Below are positions 12,860 through 64,000 of a stretch of DNA of 64,000 nucleotides, piece by piece. Source of the DNA: Hymenobacter monticola (GTDB taxonomy: Bacteria > Bacteroidota > Bacteroidia > Cytophagales > Hymenobacteraceae); assembly GCF_022811645.1 (NCBI RefSeq), contig NZ_CP094534.1, positions 5,208,001-5,272,000 of the forward strand, written 5' to 3'. Each line of letters begins with the position of its first letter. Position 1 is the stretch's first letter. The translations under genes were made by a program, and so were the position numbers. The notes beneath the pieces are model-generated. The model had not been told where the DNA came from and made no database searches. It saw nothing but the letters and a program-made list of their open reading frames with translations.

Positions 12860-12877
12860 TTGGGTTTCAGATTCATT

Positions 12878-12921
12878 CAATAAAAAAAGGCAGCACCGCG
12901 CGGTGCTGCCTTTTTTTATTG
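12878..12921. terminator. Bidirectional intrinsic terminator
   Basis: Perfect stem AAAAAAAGGCAGCACCG / CGGTGCTGCCTTTTTTT between convergent genes, with runs of A and T on either side. Confidence 0.93.
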
Positions 12922-12937
12922 TGCGGCTACCCGCCGC

Positions 12938-27226: not shown

Positions 27227-30141
<2,915 letters not shown>

Positions 30142-30291
30142 TTCGTAATCACACTTGTTGATTGTCATCCGAAAATGACCAAGTGCGCTACGCTTCGTTT
30201 TTGTTACCCCTTACGTCAAAGAACGTATGTCACTCTGTTAACTAGTGACTTCGTGAATAAGCTCCTATTGAGTTTATTCGGTGTTATATAG

Positions 30292-30365
30292 TGGAGAATA
30301 ACGGATTCGAACCGTTGACCCCCTGCGTGCAAGGCAGGTGCTCTAGCCAGCTGAGCTAATCCCCC
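30292..30365 (-). tRNA. tRNA-Ala (TGC)
   Basis: 74 bases forming a full cloverleaf: acceptor GGGGGAT/ATTCTCC, anticodon loop CTTGCAC with anticodon TGC, and T-loop GTTCGAATC. It lies in the 16S-23S spacer. Confidence 0.96.
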
Positions 30366-30401
30366 GAGTTTCGTATCCAGCAGCATTCCCGCTAGTACTA
30401 G

Positions 30402-30475
30402 TGGGCCTGCGTGGACTCGAACCACGGACCTCTACATTATCAGTGTAGCGCTCTAACCACCTGAGCTACAAGCCC
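30402..30475 (-). tRNA. tRNA-Ile (GAT)
   Basis: 74 bases with acceptor GGGCTTG/CAGGCCC, anticodon loop CTGATAA (anticodon GAT) and T-loop GTTCGAGTC. First tRNA in the 16S-23S spacer. Confidence 0.96.
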
Positions 30476-30604
30476 GAGCTTCGACGATACCCGAAGGCAA
30501 ACGTAGAATCCGTATTCAAAAATCATTTGAATGAGGAAACAAACAAAGAGTATTACCAAGCTACTCTACTTATATACTCATAACATCGTGAGCAAGGCCG
30601 CTCC

Positions 30605-32120
<1,516 letters not shown>

Positions 32121-32378
32121 AAAATTTCTCTACACCCATGCGAACATGGGCTGATGTCGAGTGCTGACCTTGCTCACATTTTGACGTTATGGTCAAATTC
32201 GTTTCGCTTGGTTTGTTTCACTGTGTTTCTTACGAAGAAGAATCAGCACGTGAAACACTTACTATTTTGTCTGTTTCCGTCATTCAAAGAACGTGTGATG
32301 CTTCCATTTGAGGCATCAGAGTGGGCCAGTGATTTGGCCCGTGACTGTCGTTATAAACCTTTGTTTGTTTTGGGATTG
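32121..32378 (-). other. rRNA operon leader
   Basis: About 250 bases between the promoter nearest the operon and the 16S 5' end. It contains a TGATGC/GCATCA stem (32296-32301 with 32313-32318). It is AT-rich compared with the flanking genes. It probably holds processing and antitermination signals; no gene is present. Confidence 0.55.
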
Positions 32379-32408
32379 CAAAGGTATAAACTTTTTTTGA
32401 TTTGACAA
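32379..32408 (-). promoter_or_regulatory. rRNA promoter P1
   Basis: -7 TACCTTTG (32379-32386) and -33 TTG (32406-32408) with 19 bases between, on the minus strand. Followed downstream by GCAATCCCAAAAC. Confidence 0.85.
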
Positions 32409-32539
32409 CTTCTTTTCGAAAAATTTTAAGCTTTTCGTATTGATTATCAAATCTGCTGCTTTCGTTTAAAGCAGCTTTCTTGTTTGTAAGTCAGCTGGTT
32501 AGGCCTGTCTTTTTGTTACCTTTATTTGTTTTGGGAGTG

Positions 32540-32569
32540 CAAAGGTACAACTTTTTTTCGGCTTTCAAA
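32540..32569 (-). promoter_or_regulatory. rRNA promoter P2
   Basis: -7 TACCTTTG (32540-32547) and -33 TTTG (32566-32569) with an 18-base spacer. Followed by GCACTCCCAAAAC, nearly identical to P1. Confidence 0.85.
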
Positions 32570-32644
32570 TCTTTCCGCGAATTCTTATTAAATTTTATTC
32601 CGGTCAGATTTTCAGTTTTGACTGCTTCCGGTTGAAGCGGGCTG

Positions 32645-32676
32645 CAAAGGTACGGTGTATTTTTTCGCTGGTGCAA
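32645..32676 (-). promoter_or_regulatory. rRNA promoter P3
   Basis: -7 TACCTTTG (32645-32652) and -33 TTG (32674-32676), spacer 21. Followed by GCAGCCCGC, the least conserved start region of the four. Confidence 0.75.
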
Positions 32677-32820
32677 GCTATTTGAGAAATAAATCTCGGC
32701 GCTTGCAACTGGTTGCAAGGATAGACAAGCTAGTCTCCGCGGGAGTTCCGGACCTTTCAACCCTGTGCTTTAGCGAATGCATTGGGCTTTTCCATTGGTC
32801 CGTTTGACGTTTTGGGACTG

Positions 32821-32850
32821 CAAAGGTAAGAGGACTTTTTGGGCCGGCAA
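32821..32850 (-). promoter_or_regulatory. rRNA promoter P4
   Basis: -7 TACCTTTG (32821-32828) and -33 TTG (32848-32850), spacer 19. Followed by GCAGTCCCAAAAC as in P1 and P2. Farthest from the 16S gene. Confidence 0.8.
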
Positions 32851-33155
32851 GGGGCCTTTTACGAAATAGTTGATTCAAGGTTGTAAGTAGCTGATTGATG
32901 CGGCAAAAAAATTAATATGCCAGTGGAGCGGTTGGTTGGGATGGAAGGCTGAGGGTGGTTCGGGACTTCTACTTAACAAGGCTTGGGAAGGGAAGAATGG
33001 TTTTTGAGCTGCGCTAGCGTGTATGTAAGATTGCCGTTGGTATGGTGGGAAAGTGAATGGTTGGAAAGTTTTGCCTCTACCTTATTGCTTAGGTTAGGTG
33101 TTTTCGGGACAGGAAAATGACTCTGCTTATCGCGACTGGGTTGCCTCTTCTCATG
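32851..33155. other. Intergenic region upstream of rRNA promoters
   Basis: About 300 bases between the outermost rRNA promoter and the purA terminator. No open frame with protein-like composition, repeat or RNA could be recognised. An upstream activating region for the rRNA operon is possible. Confidence 0.35.
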
Positions 33156-33207
33156 CAAAAACCCCGCTTCCGTCTTCAGATTTAAGCTGAGGAAGGATGC
33201 GGGGTTG
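33156..33207 (-). terminator. Terminator downstream of purA
   Basis: Stem AACCCCGC / GCGGGGTT with inner pairing (CTTCC...GGAAG), followed on the minus strand by TTTTTG. It lies about 120 bases after the purA stop. Confidence 0.8.
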
Positions 33208-33328
33208 AATGGATTTGCGAGAACTGTCGATTTAGAAAGCCTGCTTCGGTGCGCGAGATGCTTCAGTTGTGCCGAGCGTAGTGTCCATTTTTCTATTAAA
33301 GCGAGTGCTCTCTTTTATCCAGGTGCCC

Positions 33329-52900: not shown

Positions 52901-53107
52901 CAAGCTCACCGCCTGCCGGCTGGTGTTACTGAGCGTGACGAGCAGGCGGTTGGGCTGGTCGGCGTAGTCGCTCAGGTGCGTCGAGTACGGCGGCAGCGGC
53001 ACCACCGTCACGCGCACCACCGGCGTCTGGGCCCGGGCGCCCACGGCCAGGAGCAGCAGCGGCAGCAGCCAGAGCAGCCCGCGGAAGTTGAGGAGTCGTG
53101 GTTTCAT
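46961..53107 (-). CDS. Giant secreted surface protein (2048 residues)
   Basis: Signal peptide MKPRLLNFRGLLWLLPLLLL...ARA. Residues about 30-290 are beta-rich with Ig/FN3-like spacing. Residues about 380-505 are a Gly/Ser-rich low-complexity linker. From about 760 to 1200 there are four carboxypeptidase regulatory-like (CarbopepD_reg/SpaA-type) units, for example VVQGRVLRKQDNSPLQGATV, LAGRVVSDEGGSGVAAAAL, LLVTVLDSASKKPLANAEV and VGGSVTSGGTAVAGAKI. Residues 1250-1950 are long runs of alternating beta strands. The end is a cysteine-rich segment (eight Cys between about 1980 and 2026). No T9SS tail is recognisable. It is second in operon B. Function unknown; a large outer-surface scaffold or adhesin is inferred. 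Confidence 0.8.
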   Translation of the reverse strand: MKPRLLNFRGLLWLLPLLLLAVGARAQTPVVRVTVVPLPPYSTHLSDYADQPNRLLVTLSNTSRQAVSLQLAGSITGDNGVSARTRPDARSPRPVNLAALQTRQLDADELGQLFDENMLTYTGVTVQEIVRGNGLPEGTYTICVKAMDYATGRLLSAEAPVGCSRPFALRSLEAPYIIRPLADENIRPNAPQNIVFTWSRPAGAPVTTEYELRIVEMSDSRRNPNDAFLAGTVPPLFERTVSGATVLLYGPGEPALIQGRRYAFAVTARDTRNRTVFRNNGRSEVQTFVYGTVPAGAPATASTPTKPVKTVKPGDVKTTLPMTTIKGRLVWGFRASEEKSGPSWATTTPTAVFDETNGAVATVLADPSYGPGGAGILAGGATHAKAGSHGPTGTGNTPSGGNGSVGGILGSSSSSGSSTGSFSGGGVGNSTFGTFGGGSGSSSGSGGNSGGSGGSSSGGLLSATIPNPQNALNNGGSASGVASVLGGGVTLGAGFGGASGSYSTPGQLGQIGAALKQQMPQFMGSQRYPLSKTKVRLVFDYKPIAPNQPGYSDKTLNATKSVVLGLGTTNANGEFSISYMNPGQFDEAGGLAVLTGSKTKTITAIRVEVDNPRFYSEPVPFAVPEPKNGEYDLGDVACMANSYRLKVQLTDGKNPITKGVKVELLRPTNWYVNSAYARPEGQLPEGKRPAEDFFVNLTKITEVPSIGADFTRLLANVGSVDDEYIVRITGEGYQMSITTLKVQPPAGPASDGVLTVTKSYTLTPMPPVVQGRVLRKQDNSPLQGATVRLYRGPMSKPDQQLSTETDAKGHFSIALKGSSMQEWTLLVTGTGVASNYEEKHLKLLKTGPAGIVNRDPILIDATQYPLAGRVVSDEGGSGVAAAALQWRSGGAPFTADDQGRFLALHQSGPDTLLVTKLGYQPRKVPVFVEGDGKTKSGKKSKGAGTYDVSTPEGLQQAAVGLSGVVQGFPSMQPGNLSSSSGSGNSGNGKKDKNKGGNAASTVPVTASIGTQYNPMPGLSADLTNSYVDLLQGAGVGKGVPVGEGQDLGLITLTKSVGRLLVTVLDSASKKPLANAEVSFMDASPALSATANASGRAFFGKAPGGPVTVRVAGAAGSAVAYVPSLTDVTVASNGDTTRLSVRLAPGTRVGGSVTSGGTAVAGAKIRVQGRPELEATTSTAGTYELVGVPAGQWTLEATKSGLVGQSKTQEFAAGANATLDFALTGAGFAIDKLLGFPIEIKEGGLKMEADTTLTGAFVSLPGNPVFEAAPGATLAFTKVAVRLDKSGVLRPKGQTFVQTDAPELSLKAFKFLPIRLKAATGLRVLMLADNPGLGKLVGQPEIDFGPLNGALGWAFPAGTTQYLSDVAGTGPVPDLPVLVAGTPTLPTSLRLRAAGSSASLTLYGFKATIDLQKSSVGTDGLHLSGDVQLSGIPGLGTTKVGMPELWLSTSGEIKKADLSFSPAPSVSLGPWGLTLSSGALSEQGFSLGGKLKLAVPGSAPSEVTFSKLTIGASMLYGGSFTLPSGGLDVLKLAKFKPVAGSPISFGQEPGGGAYILSGGAVTSLELLKKELTIKSFAVTSAGKFSAEVPLDYDVSFAGIATLKLTTLKFNTIGELGIDVGGGVQLDLPLVKAEAGGIKYRPGKSPSVNKIGLHFPLAGIGELGGKIEFLNSGFAGQLGFNVVGALKADASFKYQKVAGDTQFSTYLLASTPPIPVGPGVLLTGLGGGFEYKYKKVTSVTMSGIIGLGGDAGLALNPLSVTVASGPVISGTANLTVATQKFANASLLLDFPNQLAAVEIKANYSPVPLVSTATAGAKVVISGRQYDTYWMMGVYANAKMLGLLDVNANVLTAWNMNRDKHPEHAAYTQFINPAYLTNGNTVNGAHLLGSTFFGRTKENAWSRSFADIASGKVWFYNSASVNLDANFKSNAYGLGIASGWGGGADISIAGKSIAGADVGAEYAVHGGYNNAEGWNFDGKAGAHLTAWFGDCSAACANKICWGGCFDPCWPIPFADACDVCPIPVGGKVCVHPGITMSYKSKTGAVDVGLDL

Positions 53108-53160
53108 ATAGTGAAAGGGTTAGGGATTTTGCAGAAGGTGTTAGCGGCACTAGCGTGGGG

Positions 53161-53260
53161 CCTCCCCCCCCCGGCCCCCTCTCCCAAAGGAGAGGGGGAG
53201 CCAAGCGTTTTTTTAAGTAGAAGTATGTCCGGTGCCCCCTCCTCCTTCGGAGAAGGTGCT
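53161..53260. repeat. REP-like double hairpin upstream of giant gene
   Basis: A perfect 10-bp stem CCCCCTCTCC/GGAGAGGGGG (53175-53184 with 53189-53198) followed by GGTGCCCCCTCC and CTCCTTCGGAG. Same family as the copies at 2960 and 46814. It lies within operon B. Confidence 0.75.
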
Positions 53261-53275
53261 GGTGCAGGCGAACCG

Positions 53276-55003
53276 TCAAAACGTGAAGCCGTAGCCGATT
53301 TCGGCGCGGGTTTCGGCGTAGCGGGGGCTGATGGGGGTGTCGCGGTTGGGCTGGTGGGCGGTGTAGGCGGCGTCGAGGCGGAGGCTGTGGTGCTGGCCGG
53401 CGCGGTAGATGGTGCGCAGGCCCGCCCCCGTGATGCGGCCGGGCTCGCCGAAGCGGCGCGCTGCCAGCCAGGAGCCACGTAGGCCCACGCGCAAGGCGTC
53501 GAGCTTCAGGAAAGGCCGGTCGGCCGAGAGCTGCAGGCCCTGGTTGAGGTCGACGCCCTGCATGAGGTCCAGTTCGGTGTAGTTGTAGGTGGCGCCCAGG
53601 GTCAGGCGCGGGGCCACCAGCGTGAGCTGGTAGTTGAGGAAGGCGTTGAGGGCCGTGAACTCGCCCAGCTTGTCGAGCACGTTGCGGCCCAGGGCGCGCA
53701 GCGTCGAGCGGTCCACGCTCAGCAGCACGGCGTGGCCGTAGTGCTCGCCCATCAGCACGTAGCGCGGCGCGATGGAGAAGCTTTGGGTGGTTTGGGCTAG
53801 CCGGAAGGAGTCGGCCACCTGCACGGCGCCGGCCTGCTGCTGGTCGGTGGTGAAGTTGCTGTAATTGAAATCGACCCCGAACCGCTCCGTAAAATCAGCC
53901 GAAGCCGAAGCGGCGCCGATGACCCGCTTGCTGGTGAGCTGCTTCTGGCCGCGCAGGTTGTCCTGCTGCACGCCGAAGCTGCCGCTGAGCCGCAGCTTCT
54001 GCTTGAACAGCGCAAAGCTGGGCGACACGGTGAGATTGGCCACATCGTCCTGAAAGAAGTAGGCGCCCATGCTCTGGTAGCCGGGCGAGATGCGGCGGTA
54101 GCGCACCTTCAGGCCGCGGCCGTTTTTCCAGTAGCCGGCGCCGGCCTGCCAGGCCGTGTAGGCCTCCGTCGAGCCATTCAGGTCGATGAGGCGGCCCAAG
54201 GTGTTATCAACGGCGCTGGGCAGGGTGCTTTCGCCCAGCACCAAGCGGCTGCCCAGGCGGCGCGTAAACAAGCTCACGGCCGCGTCGCCGTCGATAAACC
54301 AATACTTGTTTTTGCCAAAGCCCAGGCGCGTGCCCACGCCCAGGGCCAGGTTTTCGGCGGGCTGCACCAGGGTGCCGTTGGGGCCGGCGGCCAGGCGGTC
54401 TTGCCGGCTCACGCTGCTGCTGTCGTCGCGGCCCTTCACAAGGGTGAAGTCGATGAAGGACTTATCGACGGTGCCCACGCCCAGCCGCGCGGCAAAGCCC
54501 CGGCGCGAAAACGCAAACGGCGCCGTGAGGCCCGTGGTGGCATCCACGGCCGTGGCGCGGGCAAAGCGGCCCACCATCAGGCCGAAGTGGAACTTGCCGG
54601 GGTTCAGTTCCAGGCCGGCGCCCAGCATGGTGTGGCCCGCCAGCGTGAAGGGCGACCACGTGAGGTTGCGGTAGCCCAGGTGCGCCGTAGCCCATTTATA
54701 AGTCGGGCTCAGGCCAAACTGGTTGAAGGGCTGGCGCACGGCGCGGTCCTGCTCGCTCAGCACGAATTCCAGCGGCACCGCCACGCCGTAGATGTTGAGC
54801 GTGGGGCGCCCACTCAGCACGTAGCTCACCGGCTTGCGCCGGGCCGTGATGCTGCCCGAGTAGCCGTAGAGCACGGTGCGCAGGTCGAGGGTGCCGGTCA
54901 GCGTCACGGGCTTCTGCTGGCCCAGGGTGGCCAGGTCCTGGGCCCGGGCGGCGGGGCTGCCGGCTACCAGGGCGACCAGCAGCAAGAGTAGCAGGTGTTT
55001 CAT
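53276..55003 (-). CDS. Outer-membrane beta-barrel protein
   Basis: A 575-residue protein with signal peptide MKHLLLLLLVALVAGSPAARAQ and a mature chain dominated by amphipathic strands ending in aromatic residues. It closes with RAEIGYGFTF, the C-terminal aromatic signature of outer-membrane barrels. There is no plug domain or TonB box, so it is not a TonB receptor. It is the first gene of operon B, behind the dyad promoter at 55077-55168, and is followed by the giant gene. It may export or anchor the downstream surface proteins; that is inference. Confidence 0.8.
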   Translation of the reverse strand: MKHLLLLLLVALVAGSPAARAQDLATLGQQKPVTLTGTLDLRTVLYGYSGSITARRKPVSYVLSGRPTLNIYGVAVPLEFVLSEQDRAVRQPFNQFGLSPTYKWATAHLGYRNLTWSPFTLAGHTMLGAGLELNPGKFHFGLMVGRFARATAVDATTGLTAPFAFSRRGFAARLGVGTVDKSFIDFTLVKGRDDSSSVSRQDRLAAGPNGTLVQPAENLALGVGTRLGFGKNKYWFIDGDAAVSLFTRRLGSRLVLGESTLPSAVDNTLGRLIDLNGSTEAYTAWQAGAGYWKNGRGLKVRYRRISPGYQSMGAYFFQDDVANLTVSPSFALFKQKLRLSGSFGVQQDNLRGQKQLTSKRVIGAASASADFTERFGVDFNYSNFTTDQQQAGAVQVADSFRLAQTTQSFSIAPRYVLMGEHYGHAVLLSVDRSTLRALGRNVLDKLGEFTALNAFLNYQLTLVAPRLTLGATYNYTELDLMQGVDLNQGLQLSADRPFLKLDALRVGLRGSWLAARRFGEPGRITGAGLRTIYRAGQHHSLRLDAAYTAHQPNRDTPISPRYAETRAEIGYGFTF

Positions 55004-55076
55004 AGTCGGTTGCAGAAAAAAGAAAGTTGGCCGCGGCTGCCCAGCTCAGCCGCTGGTTATCAGCACGAAGACGATG

Positions 55077-55168
55077 CAAAGCAAGCCCCGCGCCCCGCCC
55101 AAGCGCGTTCGTTTTTGCCGCAAAAGCATTTGTTTTTGTGCCCGGTCGTGTGCGTTTGTTGCAAATGC
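55077..55168 (-). promoter_or_regulatory. Dyad promoter of operon B
   Basis: Read leftward from 55168: a 17-bp dyad GCGTTTGTTGCAAATGC (55152-55168), a weaker dyad (55111-55127, ending GCAAAAGC on the plus strand), CGTTCG (55106-55111) and a -7-like box TTGCTTTG (55077-55084). Every element stands at the same offset as in the promoter at 62557-62648. The ATG of the barrel gene is 73 bases downstream. Confidence 0.72.
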
Positions 55169-55218
55169 GTGCGCGTTTGCGCGGGGTACATTTGCGGCAC
55201 TGTTTTGATTAAGCCAGT

Positions 55219-55241
55219 GGCGCGGGGCACAGTCCCGCGCC
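55219..55241. repeat. Hairpin downstream of operon A
   Basis: 8-bp perfect stem GGCGCGGG/CCCGCGCC with a 7-base loop, 40 bases after the last gene of operon A. There is no T tract, so it may be a weak terminator or an mRNA 3' stabiliser. Confidence 0.6.
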
Positions 55242-55283
55242 GGCCATTGGCGGGCTTTATATCCGCAGCTAATAGGCAGTCTC

Positions 55284-55832
55284 TTAGTGAAACTTGTGGA
55301 TGCTGAAGCTGCCATTGGTCACGGTTTGGGTGCCGCTGCCGTTGCCCAGGGGCACGGCCCCGGCCGTGAAGGAGAAGGTGCCGCTGAGTTTTTGGGCGTT
55401 TTTGTCGAATTCCGTAACCGTGACGGTGCCGTTGCTGGCGGTGGGGCCGTAGAGGGTGCTGTAGGTCGCCCCAGATTTGTTGTCGGCCCCGTTCAGGGTG
55501 ATGGAACCGATGGAATAGTCGTCGAGCACCGAGCCTTTGCGCAGGTCGTACACGCCCTTGCCTTTGGCGTTGATGCCCAGCAGCGGTATCGACAAGACGT
55601 TATTAAGGTCTTTGGAACCGGCGACGATGAAAATTTTGTCGCCCGGGTCCACGATGGCGCCCGCCGTGTAGGAGTCGGTGTAGGTGACGCCGTTGTGCGT
55701 CCAGGTCACGGTGCCGTCGCCGGTCGGCGTGGCGTCGTCATCAGTTGAATCCTTTTTGCAGGCCGACAGGCCGAGGGCCGCGCCGCAGAGCAGCAACAGG
55801 GAGTAGCGGGTGAGAAAAGGGAGCGTTTTCAT
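55284..55832 (-). CDS. Lipoprotein (DUF6252-like)
   Basis: A 182-residue lipoprotein: MKTLPFLTRYSLLLLCGAALGLSAC with lipobox LSAC, then CKKDSTDDD and a compact beta domain (TWTHNGVTYTDSYTAG...GTFSFTAGAVPLGNGSGTQTVTNGSFS). The last part matches the closing GTFSF...V.NGSF pattern that I associate with DUF6252-type lipoproteins. Last gene of operon A; 81 bp separate it from the other lipoprotein. Function unknown. Confidence 0.78.
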   Translation of the reverse strand: MKTLPFLTRYSLLLLCGAALGLSACKKDSTDDDATPTGDGTVTWTHNGVTYTDSYTAGAIVDPGDKIFIVAGSKDLNNVLSIPLLGINAKGKGVYDLRKGSVLDDYSIGSITLNGADNKSGATYSTLYGPTASNGTVTVTEFDKNAQKLSGTFSFTAGAVPLGNGSGTQTVTNGSFSIHKFH

Positions 55833-55913
55833 GGTCAATGAGGATTGGAAAGAAGGAATAATTTGGAGACGGCCCAGGCTCTGATTGGCAGTATTGCCCT
55901 GGTCAACAATGCG

Positions 55914-56429
55914 TTATTTGGGCGTGTAGTTGATTTGATACTGCACCGTGTTCACGTTCTGCCAATTCACGCTGCTGCTGCCGGCCATGATGAGTGCCAG
56001 CTCGAAGTCGGCCCCGGAAGCACTGGTGAGCACTTTCTGAATAGCGGCCTTGTCGAAGCTGCGGCCGATGGACAGCTTTTGGCCGGTGAGCTCAAACACC
56101 TTGCGGGTTTGCGCGGCGCTGCTGCCGTCTTTCAGCACCAGTTCTGAGTCGTTGTTCTGGAGCAGCCAGGTGCCGGGGCCTGTCGAGCCGTCGCTGTACG
56201 TCACCACCGATTTGCCATCGGTATTGAACTTGTACCCAATTTGGTTGGAAGAACCAATGGCTGCGGTATTGCTCTGGGCATCAACGGCCAGGGTCGTGCT
56301 GTTCCCCTTCCAGGTAACGGCCGTGAGCAAGGCCGTTTTGGAGGGCGCGGGGGCGTCTTCTTTGTCTTTTTTGCAACTGACGGCCACGGCTAGCAAGGTG
56401 GGCAGGAGCAGGTAGCGAAAAGTTTTCAT
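55914..56429 (-). CDS. Lipocalin-like lipoprotein
   Basis: A 171-residue lipoprotein. Signal MKTFRYLLLPTLLAVAVSC with lipidated Cys followed by KKDKEDAPAP. The mature domain has the lipocalin-like order TWKGNSTTL...YKFNTDGKSVVTYSDGSTGPGTWLLQNNDSELVLKDG, where the GTW..L...L pattern is characteristic of lipocalin-like domains in Bacteroidota. It probably sits on the outer membrane; the ligand is unknown. Part of operon A. Confidence 0.8.
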   Translation of the reverse strand: MKTFRYLLLPTLLAVAVSCKKDKEDAPAPSKTALLTAVTWKGNSTTLAVDAQSNTAAIGSSNQIGYKFNTDGKSVVTYSDGSTGPGTWLLQNNDSELVLKDGSSAAQTRKVFELTGQKLSIGRSFDKAAIQKVLTSASGADFELALIMAGSSSVNWQNVNTVQYQINYTPK

Positions 56430-56488
56430 GGGCAAAAGGGAAATGTGAAAAGGATGGGTTGAGATGAAATCAGGCAGCGAAAGCCGGC

Positions 56489-59476
56489 CTAGCGGGCGGC
56501 CTGGGCCACGGGGGCCGGGGCGGCCGGGCGGGTGGCCTGCTCCAAGGCGGCCAGGCGGCTTTCGAGGGTGGTTTGGCCGGTTTGCAGGGCTTGCAGCTGC
56601 TGGCGGAGGGCGGCGTTTTCGGCCTTCAGGGCGTCGTTTTGCTTGGCCAGCTCCTGCACGCCCACCAGGGCCACGCCGGCCGGGTCGATGGAGCTGATGC
56701 TGGTGTTGTTGACGCCGAGGTGGAAGAGGCGGTAGAAGTCCTGGGCCATGGGGCCGAGGTGGGTTTCGCCCTTCGTGCCTTTGTAGGCCCAGCGCGAGAG
56801 GGGCAGCTGGCGGATGAGGCCCAGCACCTGGGTGCCCTCCACGGGCTGGATGTTTTCCTTGAGGTTGACGTCGGAGGCGTTGGTCCAGGCGCCGCCGGTG
56901 CTCAGGTAGGCGCCGTTGCCGTTGCTTCCGCTGCTGCCCACTTGCAAGGCCACGTTGGCGCCGCTGACGCCGGTGCGGCCAAACACCCAGCGGTTGACGA
57001 AAGTGTTGCCGAAGGCCATTGTGTTATAGTCGCCCACTACAGCCCCCGAGCCGATGGCCGCGGCGTTGCTGATGCCGACGGCGCTCACATCGGTGCCGTA
57101 GCCGAGCAGCGTCACGTCATTGCCGGTTCGGAGTGTGTTGCCCGCCAGGTAGCCCAGGAAGGTGTTGTCCTGGCCCGTGGTGGCATTGGGGGCCACTTGC
57201 CAACCCAGGTAGCAGTTGCCGTCGCCGGTGGTGTTGCTGCGGGCGGCCCCCCAGCCAGCAAAAAGGTTGGCCGCGCCCCGGTTGTTCTGGCCGGCCTGGT
57301 AGCCCACAGCCACTAGGGCGTTGGCGGTGTTGGCCTGGCCGGCCTGGTAGCCCAATAGGGTCACGCTGCCGGCGGCCGTGCTGGGCGACCCGCTACCGCT
57401 GATGCCGGCCCCGGCCTGGTAGCCCAGCGCCACGTTGTTGCTGCCGGTGGCGCCCTCGCCGGCCTGGCGGCCCACGTACACGCTGGCCGTTCCATTCACG
57501 TTATACAGCGCGGCCTCGCTGCCCACGAAGGTGTTGTCGTCGGCCTTGTTGCTGTAGCCGGCGTTGAAGCCCACCACGGTGTTGTCTTCGTTGGTGATGG
57601 CGTCGCGGTTGGCGGTGCTGCCCACGGCCACGTTGCGCCGGCCGGTGGTGTTGTAGAGGCCGGCCCCGTCGCCCACGTACACATTGCCGCCGCCGGTGGT
57701 AGTGGTGAGGCCGGCCTGCGCCCCCACAAAGGTGTTGTAGCCGGCCGTGGTGCTGGCAGCCCCGGCGTTGTAGCCCAGCAGTGTCACGTTGTTGGCGTTC
57801 CGGAAATTCTGGCCGGTGTGGTAGCCCACGGCCGTGTTGCTGCTGCCGCTGCCGGTGCCGTCGCTCTGGCCGGCCGCGATGCCCACGTAGGTGTTGTAGG
57901 CACCGGTGTTTTTCTGGCCGGCCTGGTAGCCCACGGCCACCAGGCCGTCGCCGGTGTTGGCCTGGCCGGCCTGGGTGCCCACCAGCGTCACGTTGTCGGT
58001 GCTCACCGTCACGGTGTAGTTGGGGCTGCCCTGGCCAGCCTGGAAGCCCAGGCTCACGTTGCCGTCGCCGCGGAGCTGCTTGCCGGCCTCGGCGCCCACG
58101 CTCAGGTTGCCGTCGCCGGTGTCGTTTTTCTGACCGGTGAGGTAGCCCAACTGCACGTTGTTGTCGCCGGTCGTGTTGGCCGCGCCCGCGTTGCAGCCGG
58201 CCAGGTAGTTGCGGCTGCCGCTGGTGTTAGCGGTGCCCGCTTGGTAGCCCTCAAACTGGTTGTAGATGCCGTTGGTTGACAATTTTCCGGCCTCATAGCC
58301 CACGAAGTGGTTGCCGCCGGCTATGGTCACGTTGGAACCCGCGTTAAACCCAATGAACAAGTTGGCGCCGCCCGTCGTGTTCCTCAACCCTGCATACGGC
58401 CCGATGAACAGGTTGGAAGGCCCCGTGGTGTTGGCGTAGCCCGCGTTGTAGCCCATAAACTGGCTGAAATTGGTGTTGTTGCTGTAGCCGGCTTGGTGGC
58501 CCAGCAGCAAGTTGAAGCTGCCCGTGGTGTTGCCGTAGCCGGCTTGGTAGCCTTCCATCTGGTTAGAGGCGCCGGTGGTGTTGGCGGTGCCGGCTTGGTA
58601 GCCTACCAAATGGTTGCCCCCCGCCGTGGTATTGGCAGTGCCGGCCTGGTAGCCGCTGAATAAGTTGTTGATGCCCGTGGTGTTGCTCTCGCCGCTTTGG
58701 TAGCCATCGAACTGGTTGCGGGTGCCCGTGGTATTGCCAAAACCGGCCTGGTTGCCCACAAACTGGTTCTGGTTGCCCGTGGTGTTGTGAAACCCGCTGA
58801 GGTAGCCGTCGAAGTGGTTTTCGGTGCCCGTGGTGTTGAGGTTCCCGCTGGCAGTACCCATGAATTGGTTCTGTGCGCCCGTGGTGTTGTTGTAGCCCGC
58901 CTGGAAGCCGCTGAAATAGTTGTAGCTGCCGCTGGTGTTGTTCAGTCCGCTCTGCCTGCCCAGAAAAAGGTTGTTGGTACCGGTGTTGGCGTTGCCGGCC
59001 AGGTAGCCCAGAAAAAGGTTGTTGTTGGTGTTCTGGCCCAGGTTTAAGCCCCCATCAGCCCGCACGCCCACGCCCACGGTAGTCCCTATGCTGGCCCCCG
59101 TGCCCACCAAGCCATTGCCCTGCAAGTTCAGGGCTTGCGAGGCGATGTGGTTGCCCAAGTTGTCGCCAGCAGCCGTCGGGCTCAGGAACACCCAGGCGGC
59201 AGGGGCGCCGGCGTAGTACCAGAAGCCGGTTTGGGCGCCGCCGCTGGTGGTGCCGTCGGTCTGGTATACCATCAAGCCCTGTGGCGGCGATGTAATGGCA
59301 GTCCGCTGAGCCGCCGTGAGGCGCGGAATGAGCACGCCTGTGCCATTGCTCGGGCTTTGGATATCGAGGGCTGCCTTGGCATCGGGCGTAGCCGTACCGA
59401 TGCCAATTTGGGCCGTGGCCCGGTGCGCGACGGCACTCAGGAAAAGAAAAACGACGGTGCGAAAAGCCTTTTTCAT
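56489..59476 (-). CDS. Tail-fibre-like surface protein with S74 autoprocessing domain
   Basis: A 995-residue exported protein (signal MKKAFRTVVFLFLSAVAHRATA). The N-terminal module matches the one at 41279-43525. Residues about 150-850 are some 45 repeats of roughly 15 residues, pattern GYQAGxxNTTGxxNxFxG, like the YadA head beta-roll. The C-terminal peptidase S74 domain begins ASDVNLKENI, with the Ser868/Lys873 dyad needed for self-cleavage, followed by LGPMAQDFYRLF and a coiled coil (KQNDALKAENAALRQQLQAL). S74 domains help trimerise phage tail fibres and then cut themselves off. This suggests a trimeric surface fibre. Confidence 0.88.
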   Translation of the reverse strand: MKKAFRTVVFLFLSAVAHRATAQIGIGTATPDAKAALDIQSPSNGTGVLIPRLTAAQRTAITSPPQGLMVYQTDGTTSGGAQTGFWYYAGAPAAWVFLSPTAAGDNLGNHIASQALNLQGNGLVGTGASIGTTVGVGVRADGGLNLGQNTNNNLFLGYLAGNANTGTNNLFLGRQSGLNNTSGSYNYFSGFQAGYNNTTGAQNQFMGTASGNLNTTGTENHFDGYLSGFHNTTGNQNQFVGNQAGFGNTTGTRNQFDGYQSGESNTTGINNLFSGYQAGTANTTAGGNHLVGYQAGTANTTGASNQMEGYQAGYGNTTGSFNLLLGHQAGYSNNTNFSQFMGYNAGYANTTGPSNLFIGPYAGLRNTTGGANLFIGFNAGSNVTIAGGNHFVGYEAGKLSTNGIYNQFEGYQAGTANTSGSRNYLAGCNAGAANTTGDNNVQLGYLTGQKNDTGDGNLSVGAEAGKQLRGDGNVSLGFQAGQGSPNYTVTVSTDNVTLVGTQAGQANTGDGLVAVGYQAGQKNTGAYNTYVGIAAGQSDGTGSGSSNTAVGYHTGQNFRNANNVTLLGYNAGAASTTAGYNTFVGAQAGLTTTTGGGNVYVGDGAGLYNTTGRRNVAVGSTANRDAITNEDNTVVGFNAGYSNKADDNTFVGSEAALYNVNGTASVYVGRQAGEGATGSNNVALGYQAGAGISGSGSPSTAAGSVTLLGYQAGQANTANALVAVGYQAGQNNRGAANLFAGWGAARSNTTGDGNCYLGWQVAPNATTGQDNTFLGYLAGNTLRTGNDVTLLGYGTDVSAVGISNAAAIGSGAVVGDYNTMAFGNTFVNRWVFGRTGVSGANVALQVGSSGSNGNGAYLSTGGAWTNASDVNLKENIQPVEGTQVLGLIRQLPLSRWAYKGTKGETHLGPMAQDFYRLFHLGVNNTSISSIDPAGVALVGVQELAKQNDALKAENAALRQQLQALQTGQTTLESRLAALEQATRPAAPAPVAQAAR

Positions 59477-59518
59477 GACGAAATGCAACAGGATGAGTGC
59501 CAAGGGCCGCAGGCCGGC

Positions 59519-60307
59519 CTAGAATTTGGCAGCGAGGCCCACTTTGAGGTAAGTCTGGTCGTAGCCCAGTTCGGCAAAGGTCCCGATGCTTTCGGTGAAG
59601 AAGTAGCGTCCGCCCACGAAGAGGCCCAGGGCAAACTCGTTGCCGCTGGCCGAGCCAAGCGAGCCGTAGATGCTGCTGCCCGAAAACGAAACCCCGGCGT
59701 GCCGCACGCCCATGCCCAGGCCGCCATAGGCATCAAACTTCTCATTCACCGGGTAGTGAAACGTGCCGCGCGCCATCACCACGATGTCGGTATACTTCCA
59801 CTTATCGCCCCCGCCGAGGTCGTAGCTCGCGCCCTGGTAGCCCACAATGCCGCCCACGCCCAGCACGCCCGGCCCCAGCGGCATAATGCCCCGCTCATAC
59901 GACAGGCTCAGTGCCGGCGTCACCGACGAGCTGCCGCCAAAAAAGCCGCCGCCGTAGCTGTAGCGGCTGCCCACGCCCACACCCAGGTTCACCGCGCTGG
60001 TGCCCACGCCAAAGGCCCCGGTCCCGGCAGTGGCCGCAGCTGGAGCGGGTGCGGGCGTCGGAGCAGGCGCGGGGGCCGGGGCGGGCTGGGTGGCCACGCG
60101 TGGAGCAGGTGCCGGTTTGGGTGCGGGCTTGGCGGCAGGTTTGGCCGCTGGCTTGGCGGCGGTTTTGGGCGCCGGCTTGGCCGCGGGCTTGGCGGCGGGC
60201 CAGTCCGTGGTTTTGGAGGTGGGCTTGGCGGCCTGGGCCAGCGCATCGGCAAATGGCAACGCCGAAAGGCAGCCGGCGGCAAACAGGAAGCGGAAAGAAG
60301 TAGTCAT
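59519..60307 (-). CDS. Outer-membrane beta-barrel with Lys/Pro/Ala linker
   Basis: A 262-residue protein. After a signal peptide (to about residue 25, ADALAQA) comes a stretch of about 65 residues made only of K, P, A and a few others, in repeats AKPAAKPAPK. Then comes a barrel of about 170 residues (VNLGVGVGSRYSYGGGFF...FAELGYDQTYLKVGLAAKF), ending in an aromatic residue. The linker could cross the peptidoglycan or bind it. It lies between the S74 fibre gene (42 bp) and the GNAT gene in operon A. Confidence 0.82.
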   Translation of the reverse strand: MTTSFRFLFAAGCLSALPFADALAQAAKPTSKTTDWPAAKPAAKPAPKTAAKPAAKPAAKPAPKPAPAPRVATQPAPAPAPAPTPAPAPAAATAGTGAFGVGTSAVNLGVGVGSRYSYGGGFFGGSSSVTPALSLSYERGIMPLGPGVLGVGGIVGYQGASYDLGGGDKWKYTDIVVMARGTFHYPVNEKFDAYGGLGMGVRHAGVSFSGSSIYGSLGSASGNEFALGLFVGGRYFFTESIGTFAELGYDQTYLKVGLAAKF

Positions 60308-60354
60308 TTTTTAACAGAAAAGTGAGAGATGAATCATGTGAAATGCGCCCCGCA

Positions 60355-60993
60355 CTAGTGGGGCGGCGCGGCCCGCGTCAGGCCCCAGGTGGTGAGCCAG
60401 GGCGCGCCGGGCCCCGCCGGGCACTGCCCCGTGAGCTGGAAGCCCAGCCGCTGGTAAAAGGGCAGCTGCTCGGGCACCTGGGTTTCGGCGTAGCAGGCGG
60501 TGGGCGCGCTGGCTTGGGTCAGAATCAGGGTGGCTTGCAGCAGCCGGCGCCCCAGGCCCCGCCCGCGGTGGCTGGGCCGAACGGCCAGGGCCAGCAGGTA
60601 GTGGTAGCCGGGGCGAGCCATGCTTTGGTGCCGCAGCCAGGCCGTGGCGGCCAGGTACTGCCGCACCCGCCCCCAGCTGCGCCAGTCCAGGCGCCAGAGC
60701 GCGGCGGGCAGCAGCCCCACCCGCAGCAGCTGCCACCAGCTGGCCGCCAATTGGCCCGGGCCCAGCCATACCGCCAGGGCCGTGCGCTCGGCGTTGGCAT
60801 ACACGCGGCCATAGCGCAGCCCAAAGCGCAGCAGCCGGCTCAGCAGCCAGGCTTTTTGCGCCGCCGCGGCAGGCCCGCTGCAGCAGTGGCGCAGCACGGG
60901 GTGGTCGGCGCAGGCATCGGCCAGCAAGGCTGTGGCCCAGCCGAGGTCGGCAACCCCCAGGCGATAAGCCGGCGGAGTAAGGGTGGGAACCAT
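60355..60993 (-). CDS. GNAT family N-acetyltransferase
   Basis: A 212-residue acetyltransferase with the acetyl-CoA motif LALAVRPSHRGRGLGRRLLQ (pattern V.....GRG.G..LL), then the beta strand AETQVPEQLPFYQRLGFQLTG typical of motif B. It has no signal peptide, so it is the only clearly cytoplasmic enzyme in operon A, where it sits between a secreted T9SS protein and a barrel. Its acceptor is unknown; modification of a cofactor or of a fibre subunit before export is possible but unproven. Confidence 0.88.
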   Translation of the reverse strand: MVPTLTPPAYRLGVADLGWATALLADACADHPVLRHCCSGPAAAAQKAWLLSRLLRFGLRYGRVYANAERTALAVWLGPGQLAASWWQLLRVGLLPAALWRLDWRSWGRVRQYLAATAWLRHQSMARPGYHYLLALAVRPSHRGRGLGRRLLQATLILTQASAPTACYAETQVPEQLPFYQRLGFQLTGQCPAGPGAPWLTTWGLTRAAPPH

Positions 60994-61058
60994 AAGCGTG
61001 GTTGAAATGAAACGGCTAATAGGCGTTGAAAATCAGGCACAAGCCAAAGCCCGGCCGG

Positions 61059-62516
61059 CTACTCGCGCACCAGCTTCAGCACCTGGCTGGTGCCGGCGGT
61101 GGTGACGCGCAGCAGGTACACGCCGCTGCTCAGCGCCCTCGTTTCAGCCCCGAGTACTTCCTCGCTCACGCGGTCGGTGGTTCGGAATTCGGCCAGCCGG
61201 CGGCCGGCGGCATCGGTGAGCGTGGCCGTGAGGGGTCCGGCAAAAGGCTGCTCAATGCGAATGTGCGGCCCCGACCCCGCCGACGGGTTGGGCCAGGCGC
61301 TGACGAGCAGGGCCGTAGTGCTTTCCACCGCCACCGCGCGCACCGACGAAAACAAGGCTGTGCCATCCGCATCCACCTGCCGCAGGCGGTAGTAGAGCGT
61401 GGGCACGCCGTACTGCGCCACTTTGGCATCTACGAGCTGATAGTCATGCACCTGCGTGCTGCTACCCTGCCCGGCCACCCGCCCGACGCGCTCAAACAGC
61501 AGGCCGTCGAGGCTGCGCTCCACGTCGAAGTAGGCGTTGTTTTTCTCCGACGCCGTGCGCCAGTCCAGGCGGGCATCGGGCCCCTGCCGGCGGGCGGTGA
61601 ATTCTACCAACTCCACCGGCAGCGGCGTGTTGAGGTCGGATATGGTGAAGCGGCCGACTACGTCTTCGGTGTTGGCCGCCGCCGGGCTATACTGCCGCGG
61701 GCTGGTGGCCGACACGTCGGTAGTGGGGCCGGCCGCCCGCTGCCAGATGGCATAGGGCGCGTCGCTCCGCCAGGGCGTGGCCTGCGCCATGTTGCGGCCG
61801 TTGTCGAGCGCGCCCAGCCAGCTGAAGTGCATCTTGCGCTTGGGGTTGCCGTTGGCCGAAGACGCCACCTCCCAATACACGGCCACCGAGGCATTGCCAT
61901 TCACGGTGGTAACGCCCGCCGGACCGGTCACGCGCGTCAGCGTGATGTTGCCCACGTTGCCGCCACCCGCCGGCATGCTCAGGCCCAGAAAAGGCCCGAA
62001 GGCGCCGCCGCCCACGCTGCGCGCGGCCATGGTCACGGGCCCCACCAGGCGGGCGCTGTTGGTTTCCAAAGGGTCGGGGGCGGTGGGCAGCAGCACCAGT
62101 GGGGTGGCCGTGGCAATGGTCACGAGGCCGTTGGTGAGGGTGAGGATGCCGGCCAGCGTGGCGTTCAGGTTCAAGGTCACGCCGGCAGGGTTGCTCACCG
62201 TCAGGTTCTGCAGGGGCAAAGGACTGGAGCCGCTTAAGGTTTGCTGGGCTGTGCCGTTGGCGCGGAGCAGGGCCGCGGCGGCCGTGGGCGTGGTCACGGT
62301 GCCGTTGTTGGTCAGGTTGCCGCCCACTTCCAGCTGGCCCTCGTTGGTGAGGGTGGTGCCGGCACCCACGTTCAGGTAGCCGGGCGAAGTCACCGTGCCA
62401 CCGGGTCCTATATATAAGGTTGATGAGCCCGTGAGCGACACCTGAGCATGCACAGCTACTAGCGGCAAGCCGGCCAGCAGGCTCACGGGCAACAGCAAAA
62501 AGTAGATATTTTTCAT
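61059..62516 (-). CDS. Secreted T9SS type A sorting domain protein
   Basis: A 485-residue protein: signal peptide (MKNIYFLLLPVSLLAGLPLVAVHA), then a beta-helix-like region of repeats such as TVTSPGYLNVGAGTTLTNEGQLEVGGNLTNNG. A domain with LPVELVEFTARRQGPDARLDWRTASEKNNAYFDVERSLDG (a phrase common in Bacteroidota secreted proteins) follows. A T9SS type A sorting domain ends it: AWPNPSAGSGPHIRI, LTDAAGRRL and SSGVYLLRV. First gene of operon A, under the dyad promoter at 62557-62648. Confidence 0.9.
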   Translation of the reverse strand: MKNIYFLLLPVSLLAGLPLVAVHAQVSLTGSSTLYIGPGGTVTSPGYLNVGAGTTLTNEGQLEVGGNLTNNGTVTTPTAAAALLRANGTAQQTLSGSSPLPLQNLTVSNPAGVTLNLNATLAGILTLTNGLVTIATATPLVLLPTAPDPLETNSARLVGPVTMAARSVGGGAFGPFLGLSMPAGGGNVGNITLTRVTGPAGVTTVNGNASVAVYWEVASSANGNPKRKMHFSWLGALDNGRNMAQATPWRSDAPYAIWQRAAGPTTDVSATSPRQYSPAAANTEDVVGRFTISDLNTPLPVELVEFTARRQGPDARLDWRTASEKNNAYFDVERSLDGLLFERVGRVAGQGSSTQVHDYQLVDAKVAQYGVPTLYYRLRQVDADGTALFSSVRAVAVESTTALLVSAWPNPSAGSGPHIRIEQPFAGPLTATLTDAAGRRLAEFRTTDRVSEEVLGAETRALSSGVYLLRVTTAGTSQVLKLVRE

Positions 62517-62556
62517 GGCACGGACCGGGGTTGGAGGAGTGGCTGATTGACAGTGT

Positions 62557-62648
62557 CAAAGCAAGTCCATCACCTTCCCGAACCCCGTTCGGCTGCGTTG
62601 CAAATGCGTTGGTGGCCGTTGCACCGCTTTGGCATTTGTTGCAAATGC
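62557..62648 (-). promoter_or_regulatory. Dyad promoter of operon A
   Basis: A perfect 17-bp dyad GCATTTGTTGCAAATGC (62632-62648), a half-conserved dyad (62591-62607, ending GCAAATGC on the plus strand), CGTTCG (62586-62591) and a -7-like TTGCTTTG (62557-62564). Spacings equal those at 55077-55168 base for base. The ATG at 62516 lies 41 bases downstream. Confidence 0.74.
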
Positions 62649-62692
62649 ATTCGCAATCGTGCCAAGGCCTTAAAATCCTCCCAGAAAATCCA

Positions 62693-62727
62693 CAAAAAAC
62701 CCGGTGAGCGAGGTGCCGCACCGGGTT
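62693..62727 (-). terminator. Terminator of the hybrid kinase gene
   Basis: Stem AACCCGGTG/CACCGGGTT followed on the minus strand by TTTTTTG, about 95 bases after the stop at 62821. Confidence 0.85.
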
Positions 62728-62820
62728 GCTGTTGGGGGATATTTGGGTGAGTTTCGTCGTCGCGTCAAGCGCACGCAAAGCCTGTCGTGTCCTTCGTGAA
62801 GGCATGGGGCCTTTCCGGTC

Positions 62821-64000
62821 CTACTCCTCGCCTGCCTGCCGCGCTGCCGCACTGGGCGGGTAGCCGAACTGCCGCGAAAACGCCGTGGAGAAAGCGGCCG
62901 GGCTGCCAAAGCCCACCTGGTACGACACCTCCGCCACCGTGCCCACCCGCACCTGTAGCAAGGCGTGCGCCCGCTGCAGGCGCGTGCCCCGGATGTACTC
63001 GCCCGGCGACTGCCCCGTGAGGGCCTTAAGCTTGCGGTGCACCTGCGTGCGGCTCATGCCAATGTCCTGCCCCATCTCATCCACGCCAAACGTTTCGTCG
63101 CCTAAGTGCTGCAACACCGATTCGTTCACCCGGCGCAAAAACTCCTGGTCGAGCGAGGGCAGCCCGGCCACGGCTGCCGCGTGCTCGGCCGCGTCTACGC
63201 CACGCACCGGGCGCGCTGCCGGAGCGGTGGTGGCCGGAGCGGTGGTGGCCGGCGCCGCTTTGGGCACTTCGGTGGGCGCGGCTTCGGGCTGGGTGGCGGT
63301 GGCGAAATGGGTGCGCACCCGCTGACGCAAAGCCAGCAGGTTGCGCACCTGGGCGCGCAGCTCGCGCGGGTTGAAGGGCTTGGCCAGGAAGGCATCAGCG
63401 CCGGTTTCGAGCCCCTCGAGCTTGGCGTCGGGCTCCGACTTGGCCGTGAGCAGCACCACCGGAATGTGGCTGGTCACGGGGTTGGTTTTGAGCTGTTCGC
63501 ATACCTGGTAGCCATTCAGGCCGGGCATCATCACGTCGCTTACTACTAAGTCGGGCACTTCGGCCTGGGCCAGGGCCACGCCGGCCCGGCCATCGGGGGC
63601 CAGCAGCACGCGGTAGCCGGCCGGCGCCAGCGTGGCCCGCACAAACTCGCGCACCTCGTCGTTGTCTTCAATCACCAGCACCACTTCGGCCTCGGCCTGG
63701 GGCGGCGTTGGCTCTTCTGTTAACTCCTCAGCAGCAGCGGGCGCCGGAGCCGGAGTACTGGTAGAGGCCCCGCCCAGCGTCACGGCCACAGGCCGCAGCC
63801 CCCGCGGCAGGTGCACCGTGAAGACGGCGCCGACACCGGGCTCGCTGCTCACCACCACGGTGCCGCCGTGCAGGGCCGTGAGCTCGCGCACCAACGCCAG
63901 GCCAATGCCCGTGCCGGTGCGCAGGTGTTCGGCGGCGGGGTTGCTAGCCTGGTAAAAACGGTCGAACAGGTGCGGCAGGTCTTCGGCGGCAATGCCGGGG
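62821..64000 (-). CDS. Hybrid histidine kinase with AraC output (HTCS), N-terminus outside window
   Basis: Open to the right edge. In order the visible part has: the end of a histidine-kinase ATPase domain (LFDRFYQ F-box and GTGIGLALVRELTALHGG, the G2 box); a P/A-rich linker; a receiver domain (VLVIEDNDEVREFV with acidic pocket, phospho-acceptor Asp in LVVSDVMMPGLNGYQ, and LTAKSEP plus a KPF lysine); a second Ala/Thr/Pro linker; and an AraC-type helix-turn-helix (MSRTQVHRKLKALTGQSPGEYIR). This is the hybrid two-component architecture used in Bacteroidota for extracellular signals. It lies just upstream of operon A and is the natural candidate for its activator. Confidence 0.93.
   Translation of the reverse strand, partial: PGIAAEDLPHLFDRFYQASNPAAEHLRTGTGIGLALVRELTALHGGTVVVSSEPGVGAVFTVHLPRGLRPVAVTLGGASTSTPAPAPAAAEELTEEPTPPQAEAEVVLVIEDNDEVREFVRATLAPAGYRVLLAPDGRAGVALAQAEVPDLVVSDVMMPGLNGYQVCEQLKTNPVTSHIPVVLLTAKSEPDAKLEGLETGADAFLAKPFNPRELRAQVRNLLALRQRVRTHFATATQPEAAPTEVPKAAPATTAPATTAPAARPVRGVDAAEHAAAVAGLPSLDQEFLRRVNESVLQHLGDETFGVDEMGQDIGMSRTQVHRKLKALTGQSPGEYIRGTRLQRAHALLQVRVGTVAEVSYQVGFGSPAAFSTAFSRQFGYPPSAAARQAGEE

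Follow-up and report, generated by a model that had tools for sequence, protein, structure and literature searches.

Direct-repeat arrays ahead of two surface-protein operons of Hymenobacter monticola as likely operators of a hybrid two-component system

Activators of the AraC family at class II promoters use direct-repeat half-sites that end near -35, combined with a poor upstream promoter element. Two upstream regions in a 64,000-nt stretch of Hymenobacter monticola (NZ_CP094534.1, here called the window; the genome, G000, has 6,124,749 bases in 7 contigs) show a similar layout, but the candidate regulator carries its helix-turn-helix (HTH) domain in one protein with a sensor kinase and a receiver, and the promoters appear to be of the Bacteroidota type. 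One region precedes the gene for a surface protein sorted by the type IX secretion system (T9SS), the other a gene for a putative barrel protein. The closest described systems are the predicted operators of AraC-type hybrid two-component systems (HTCS) in Bacteroides thetaiotaomicron, direct repeats with an average spacing of 21 bp that lie upstream of neighbouring outer-membrane gene clusters (PMC3878776), and the Hymenobacter repeats likewise follow each other at about 21 bp. The Bacteroides motifs, as given in that work, comprise two sites each and serve SusC/SusD targets in polysaccharide loci (PMC3878776), whereas the Hymenobacter arrays contain three clear cores and a partial unit, the strongest two cores being 41 bp apart. 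The SusR-like operators of Bacteroides are different again, with sites 67 or 77 bp apart and a regulator that lacks the AraC-type domain (PMC3878776), and PMC12125979 concerns XylRA and not HTCS sites. Operators of this kind are already known; what appears to be new, within the literature searched, is the form of the array, its motif and, in Hymenobacter, a regulon of surface proteins. A limited search found no paper on HTCS or propeller regulators in this genus. We assign a probability of roughly 0.72 to the reading, drawn from sequence comparison, that each region is an HTCS operator array and that the adjoining HTCS, here termed HTCS-A, is the likely regulator of both operons.

The element shared by the two regions is a head-to-tail array of units of about 21 bp (CRAANGCATTTGCAAC) that stops 40 bp ahead of a -7-like element, TTGCTTTG. 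A first-pass annotation of this DNA had described the same sequences as a pair of dyads with centres 41 bp from each other. The elements that it named are indeed present at their positions, with CAAAGCAAG at 55077-55085 and 62557-62565 and, counted from there, CGTTCG at offsets 29-34, GCAAA[A/T]GC at 43-50 and GC[G/A]TTTGTTGCAAATGC at 75-91 in both regions. The dyad description, however, has to be given up, as the element at 43-50 is one arm only and the 41 bp separate equivalent cores of two direct repeats, not the centres of dyads. Between the two strong repeats lies a weaker third copy, 20-21 bp from each, and CGTTCG, which reads CGAACG on the transcribed strand, is the start of a fourth unit. 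Ahead of the T9SS gene the minus strand reads GCGAATGCATTTGCAACAAAT, GCCAAAGCGGTGCAACGGCC, ACCAACGCATTTGCAACGCAG, CCGAACG and then TTGCTTTG (62557..62564), the latter 40 bp beyond the point where the final TTTGCAAC core starts. In coordinates, this array (62593..62654, minus strand) consists of unit 1 (62634-62654, core TTTGCAAC at 62638-62645), the weaker unit 2 (62614-62633, core GGTGCAAC at 62618-62625) and unit 3 (62593-62613, core TTTGCAAC at 62597-62604), followed by the partial unit 4, CCGAACG (62586..62592), a position at which the consensus of 22 arrays is CGaA. The barrel array (55117..55168, minus strand) shares this layout and the 40-bp distance to its TTGCTTTG (55077..55084), with unit 1 (core TTTGCAAC, 55158-55165), a weaker middle unit (CGGGCACA, near 55137-55144), unit 3 (core TTTGCGGC, 55117-55124) and the partial unit CGAACG (55106..55111).

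Over offsets 0-91 the two regions are identical in 59 of 92 positions without a gap, and identity falls to 20/70 in the preceding and 25/78 in the following sequence. In 300 first-order Markov resamplings of the two intergenic gaps, the highest number of identities over 92 bp was 40.4 on average and 47 at most, versus the 59 observed. The 17-mer at offsets 75-91 occurs intact only twice in the genome, in these two regions; with up to two mismatches there are 5 genomic occurrences (2 for the reversed control pattern), and up to three mismatches yield 4 rows within the window, two of them being one place read on both strands, versus 0.43 expected. A sequence-only model of the arrays, R1, for which 150 of 1359 first-look candidates in this genome were scored, returned two strong matches, the T9SS-gene array with 86.2 bits and the barrel array with 84.1 bits, and the next match scored 15.6 bits (E 0.07). 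The motif is thus not scattered at random over the genome. Note that a near-match 373 bp before the window and two other 17-mers with two mismatches were absent from the R1 matches and were taken as chance.

Similar regions were collected from H. monticola, H. properus, H. ruricola (G102), G149, G139 and contig L065 of a metagenome-assembled genome. The resulting nine sequences, five ahead of T9SS genes and four ahead of barrel genes (alignment A1), align nearly gap-free with 21 of 109 columns invariant. As these promoters are related and not independent, their self-similarity is descriptive, with the highest values at lags of 41 (0.41) and 21 bp (0.38) and a mean of 0.256 for lags 5-49. A wider set of 22 arrays comprised the T9SS-gene array of G139, 4 barrel arrays and 12 and 5 arrays linked to HTCS genes of types A and B, respectively (the HTH domains sort into types A, B and C; the set excludes C-type arrays and those next to divergent HTCS genes). 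In this set a core with at least four of the five letters of GCAAC is found at offset -41 in 19 arrays, at -21 in 17 and at 0 in 19, with a mean of 0.56 and a maximum of 5 at 80 background offsets, a count that describes the array and does not prove its pitch, many of the arrays having been found with the model. A position matrix of unit 3 scores above zero at -41 in 20 of 26 arrays but at -21 in only 6 and at +21 in none, so that the middle and fourth units must be regarded as weak. Because the middle unit is degenerate, the strict pattern TTTGCAACN{11,15}TTTGCAAC has no match in the H. monticola genome. Inspection by eye suggests a further unit upstream of the arrays.

The comparison across species bears on two other explanations for the likeness of the regions. 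A symmetric dimeric regulator of the CRP/FNR type might bind the 17-bp dyad, which is a near-perfect palindrome at both window sites, but two-fold symmetry is not a conserved property, both five-letter arms being perfect in only 3 of the 22 arrays while the direct repeat is retained, and there are only two sites in the genome. As the dyad is not kept across arrays, we set this very improbable regulator aside. For two regions that lie about 7.5 kb apart and align without gaps, one could also invoke a recent duplication or a gene conversion that has no bearing on regulation. Both kinds of array are nevertheless present in H. properus, H. ruricola and G190, and the arrays group by gene and not by species, with 67% identity inside each gene's group and 54% between the T9SS-gene and barrel groups, which makes such an origin most improbable and agrees with the first-pass proposal of selection on sites. 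The expectation that the spacing would persist in orthologous clusters holds for the nine promoters, but not for every barrel gene. The family sample of 150 genomes contains 5 barrel orthologues besides that of H. monticola. H. ruricola retains the array ahead of the gene; in G078, G137 and G141 the gene stands close behind lipoprotein genes, in an operon behind an HTCS and without an array of its own, with variant repeats (TTTGCGAC) near the start of that operon; and no array was detected at the G131 barrel locus. Paralogues of the T9SS gene with about 40% identity (L053-L062) showed neither an array nor an HTCS output domain. One of 18 loci intended as negative controls did give an array match, a barrel locus of Dyadobacter. 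This array of Dyadobacter sp. CY312 (L069, 9774-9845, 23.8 bits) lies ahead of a barrel orthologue in another family; three other Dyadobacter loci that were checked had none, and HTCS matches in the four genomes were at most 42% identical.

The gene for HTCS-A lies directly upstream of the T9SS-gene array on the same strand and runs past the window edge (C-terminal part 62821..64000, minus strand; whole gene G000:C1:5270821-5274936). Its product of 1371 amino acids (L006:10821-14936) matches Reg_prop, Y_Y_Y, HisKA, HATPase_c, Response_reg and HTH_18 above the Pfam cut-offs and so unites sensor propeller, kinase, receiver and AraC-type HTH in a single protein, as is characteristic of an HTCS. 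An S/CHIP motif has been described for HTCS receivers (PMC11253607), and a SHIP motif is present in those of HTCS-A and of HTCS-B, the single close paralogue in the genome (53%), which is encoded at an unlinked position (G000:C1:4704168-4708289). Between the HTCS-A gene and the array, a hairpin followed by six U (62698..62727, minus strand; -18.8 kcal/mol, z -2.94) is a probable terminator; a terminator motif scan did not list it and gave no excess over shuffles, and Rfam had no match in 53000-64000.

At both promoters, TTGCTTTG agrees in 5 of 6 fixed letters with TAnnTTTG, the consensus for the primary sigma factor of Bacteroidota (PMC9723704, PMC7366714). In Flavobacterium psychrophilum this box occupies -12 to -5 (PMC9723704); for F. 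johnsoniae, PMC7366714 reports that no -33 motif was found. A -33 TTG had been said to be absent from both window promoters. This is correct for the T9SS gene, whose -7 element has no TTG in the 30 nt ahead of it; in the barrel promoter, however, a TTG stands 15 nt ahead of the -7 element. Among the nine orthologous promoters, 7 lack a TTG. By inference the unit-3 core would fall at about -52 to -45 and CGAACG at about -39 to -34, the place expected for an activator of class II. With a -7 match, no good -33 element and the last unit just upstream, activator dependence is plausible; a sigma-70 scan yielded no excess over shuffles. We infer the following course of events. On triggering of the membrane sensor HTCS-A, the receiver would be phosphorylated and would release the AraC-type DNA-binding domain, and HTCS subunits would line up on one face of the DNA along direct repeats spaced 20-21 bp (CRAANGCATTTGCAAC). 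The promoter-proximal unit would then substitute for the -33 element and bring RNA polymerase to TTGCTTTG, and through the second array, 7.5 kb downstream, the same regulator would turn on the barrel operon.

The association of arrays with HTCS genes was analyzed in other genomes. In 120 genomes of the genus, R1 (strict filters, 32 candidates per genome) gave 43 rows in 26 genomes at E <=0.01, including the 9 training regions and 2 second pieces of one array. Genes similar to HTCS-A (E <=1e-150) are present in 29 of 120 genomes, assumed to be the same set, and accompany an R1 match in 18. After removal of the six training genomes, 12 are shared between sets of 23 and 20 in 114 genomes (P 1.3e-5, with relatedness ignored). 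Eight genomes with an R1 match lack an HTCS-A-like gene, and 7 of these have another HTCS output domain beside the array. Among the 31 non-training genus arrays whose surroundings were fetched, 27 have an HTCS receiver-HTH match (E <=6e-45) within 5 kb, while 13 control loci (197 kb) contained one weak match. A 32nd array (G190:C516) has no HTCS in its 3.1 kb of sequence and lies directly ahead of an orthologue of the T9SS gene (69%). Independently of the motif, 31 HTCS loci were selected by protein similarity, of which 26 provided usable 3' flanks and 20 remained once 6 training-related ones were removed. These 20 flanks contain 7 pairs of TTTGCRAC-like cores at 20-22 bp and 3 at 40-42 bp, where 0.055 and 0.042 are expected; none of 1000 shuffles reached either number, and a lag of 21 was the best among lags 8-60. 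The pairs stem from 6 of the 20 flanks. We further built a second model, R2, from 12 HTCS-adjacent arrays of other genomes, without T9SS-gene or barrel promoters, although it was R1 that had located these 12 arrays. In the window, R2 recognized only the two regions, with 38.2 bits and an adjoining 16.6-bit piece for the T9SS gene and 22.1 bits for the barrel gene, and it had no match in the 13 control loci. In 291 genomes of the order, 13 had matches at E <=0.001; seven of these are outside the genus, in one other family, and in 5 of the 7 the matched stretch begins 14-46 bp past an HTCS stop codon. As to the remaining two, the match in G425 has no HTCS and precedes a downstream gene of the same kind, and that in G449 is a simple repeat. 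As a side observation, a gene of about 216-225 codons with an HPHPLE...EAVA motif follows the array in this family (L186-L190, L192) at no fewer than four loci, one of them without an HTCS.

Several results weigh against HTCS-A as the common regulator. No R1 match was found in 11 of the 29 genomes with an HTCS-A-like gene, and 4 of the 31 arrays lack an HTCS within 5 kb (the second array of G189, G078, G188 and G198:C274, the last two near contig ends). Near-identical relatives (G137, G141, G187) contribute three of the 7 flank pairs, R2 matches the barrel array weakly and in a shifted register, HTCS-B has no array beside its gene in H. monticola, and in G139 the array is kept and HTCS-B present although the HTCS-A gene is internally deleted. 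Another direct-repeat regulator, encoded elsewhere, might use the arrays, with the HTCS genes being neighbours for a different reason, as the four arrays without a nearby HTCS and those of G425 and Dyadobacter sp. CY312, which have none near, would allow. An association with HTCS output domains in two families and in flanks chosen without the motif makes this improbable. HTCS-B is a more serious candidate, alone or together with HTCS-A, for the barrel array or for both. A B-type HTCS heads the barrel half in H. ruricola, G139 has lost HTCS-A but retains HTCS-B and the T9SS-gene array, A- and B-linked arrays are similar to each other (54% between groups), and the barrel arrays resemble B-linked arrays (48.6%) almost as much as A-linked ones (51.2%). 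HTCS-B is, however, unlinked and has no adjoining array in its own genome, whereas HTCS-A adjoins the T9SS-gene array, and we therefore regard its use as unlikely, if well worth keeping in mind. At the level of sequence there is good support for the first-pass proposal that the two operons share one regulator, with the adjoining HTCS-A as the candidate, and the cell can probably switch both groups of surface genes on together.

In G139 (L052, G139:C54, about 12730-13300, minus strand) a short N-terminal piece of the sensor leads into a short C-terminal piece with an internal stop, and the T9SS gene and array behind it are intact. C-type HTCS genes pair with the operator variant TTTGCGAC in place of TTTGCAAC (L017-L019, L150, L153-L156), and all 5 of the flanks that have an exact core show TTTGCGAC with the C type (G078, G137, G141, G154, G187). 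The pairing possibly reflects a difference in DNA reading, confounded by relatedness.

The first gene of operon 1 encodes the T9SS-sorted surface protein (61059..62516, minus strand; TIGR04183 31.2 bits, cut-off 23) and is followed by genes for a GNAT acetyltransferase, a protein with a sub-threshold OMP_b-brl match, and Peptidase_S74, Lipocalin_4 and DUF6252 proteins. Many arrays of the genus likewise have a GNAT acetyltransferase gene in first or second place behind them (L112-L120, L127, L052). Operon 2 begins with the barrel gene (P0001; 53276..55003, minus strand), whose product has no family match and is predicted to be strand-rich at moderate model confidence (mean pLDDT 66.7, pTM 0.53). 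The genes behind it code for a CarboxypepD_reg protein of 2048 amino acids, an fn3 protein and an OmpA-family protein. SusC/SusD, the usual but not defining companions of HTCS in Bacteroides, were not found among the cluster proteins scanned. Elsewhere in the window, positions 27800-33300 have no listed open reading frame of at least 150 amino acids and hold tRNA-Ala and tRNA-Ile, probably as part of an rRNA operon.

For a family of sensors known mainly from gut polysaccharide loci, the arrays provide a concrete motif in the DNA, along with a candidate for the regulator and two operons as its putative targets. The motif serves as a search tool across genera and in a second family, HTCS control of cell-surface proteins becomes directly testable, and G139, with its sensor gene deleted and its array kept, is a natural experiment. 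A wider view, which we put forward tentatively and think somewhat less probable than its opposite, is that a branch of HTCS in the Cytophagales has left polysaccharide digestion and controls surface remodelling through phased, cooperative arrays of at least three half-sites, with an operator code common to paralogous sensors. If so, the surface programme would consist of T9SS-sorted, tail-fibre-like, lipoprotein-like and barrel proteins together with an acetyltransferase, different outside signals would converge on one cluster, and a paralogue could replace a lost sensor, as G139 suggests.

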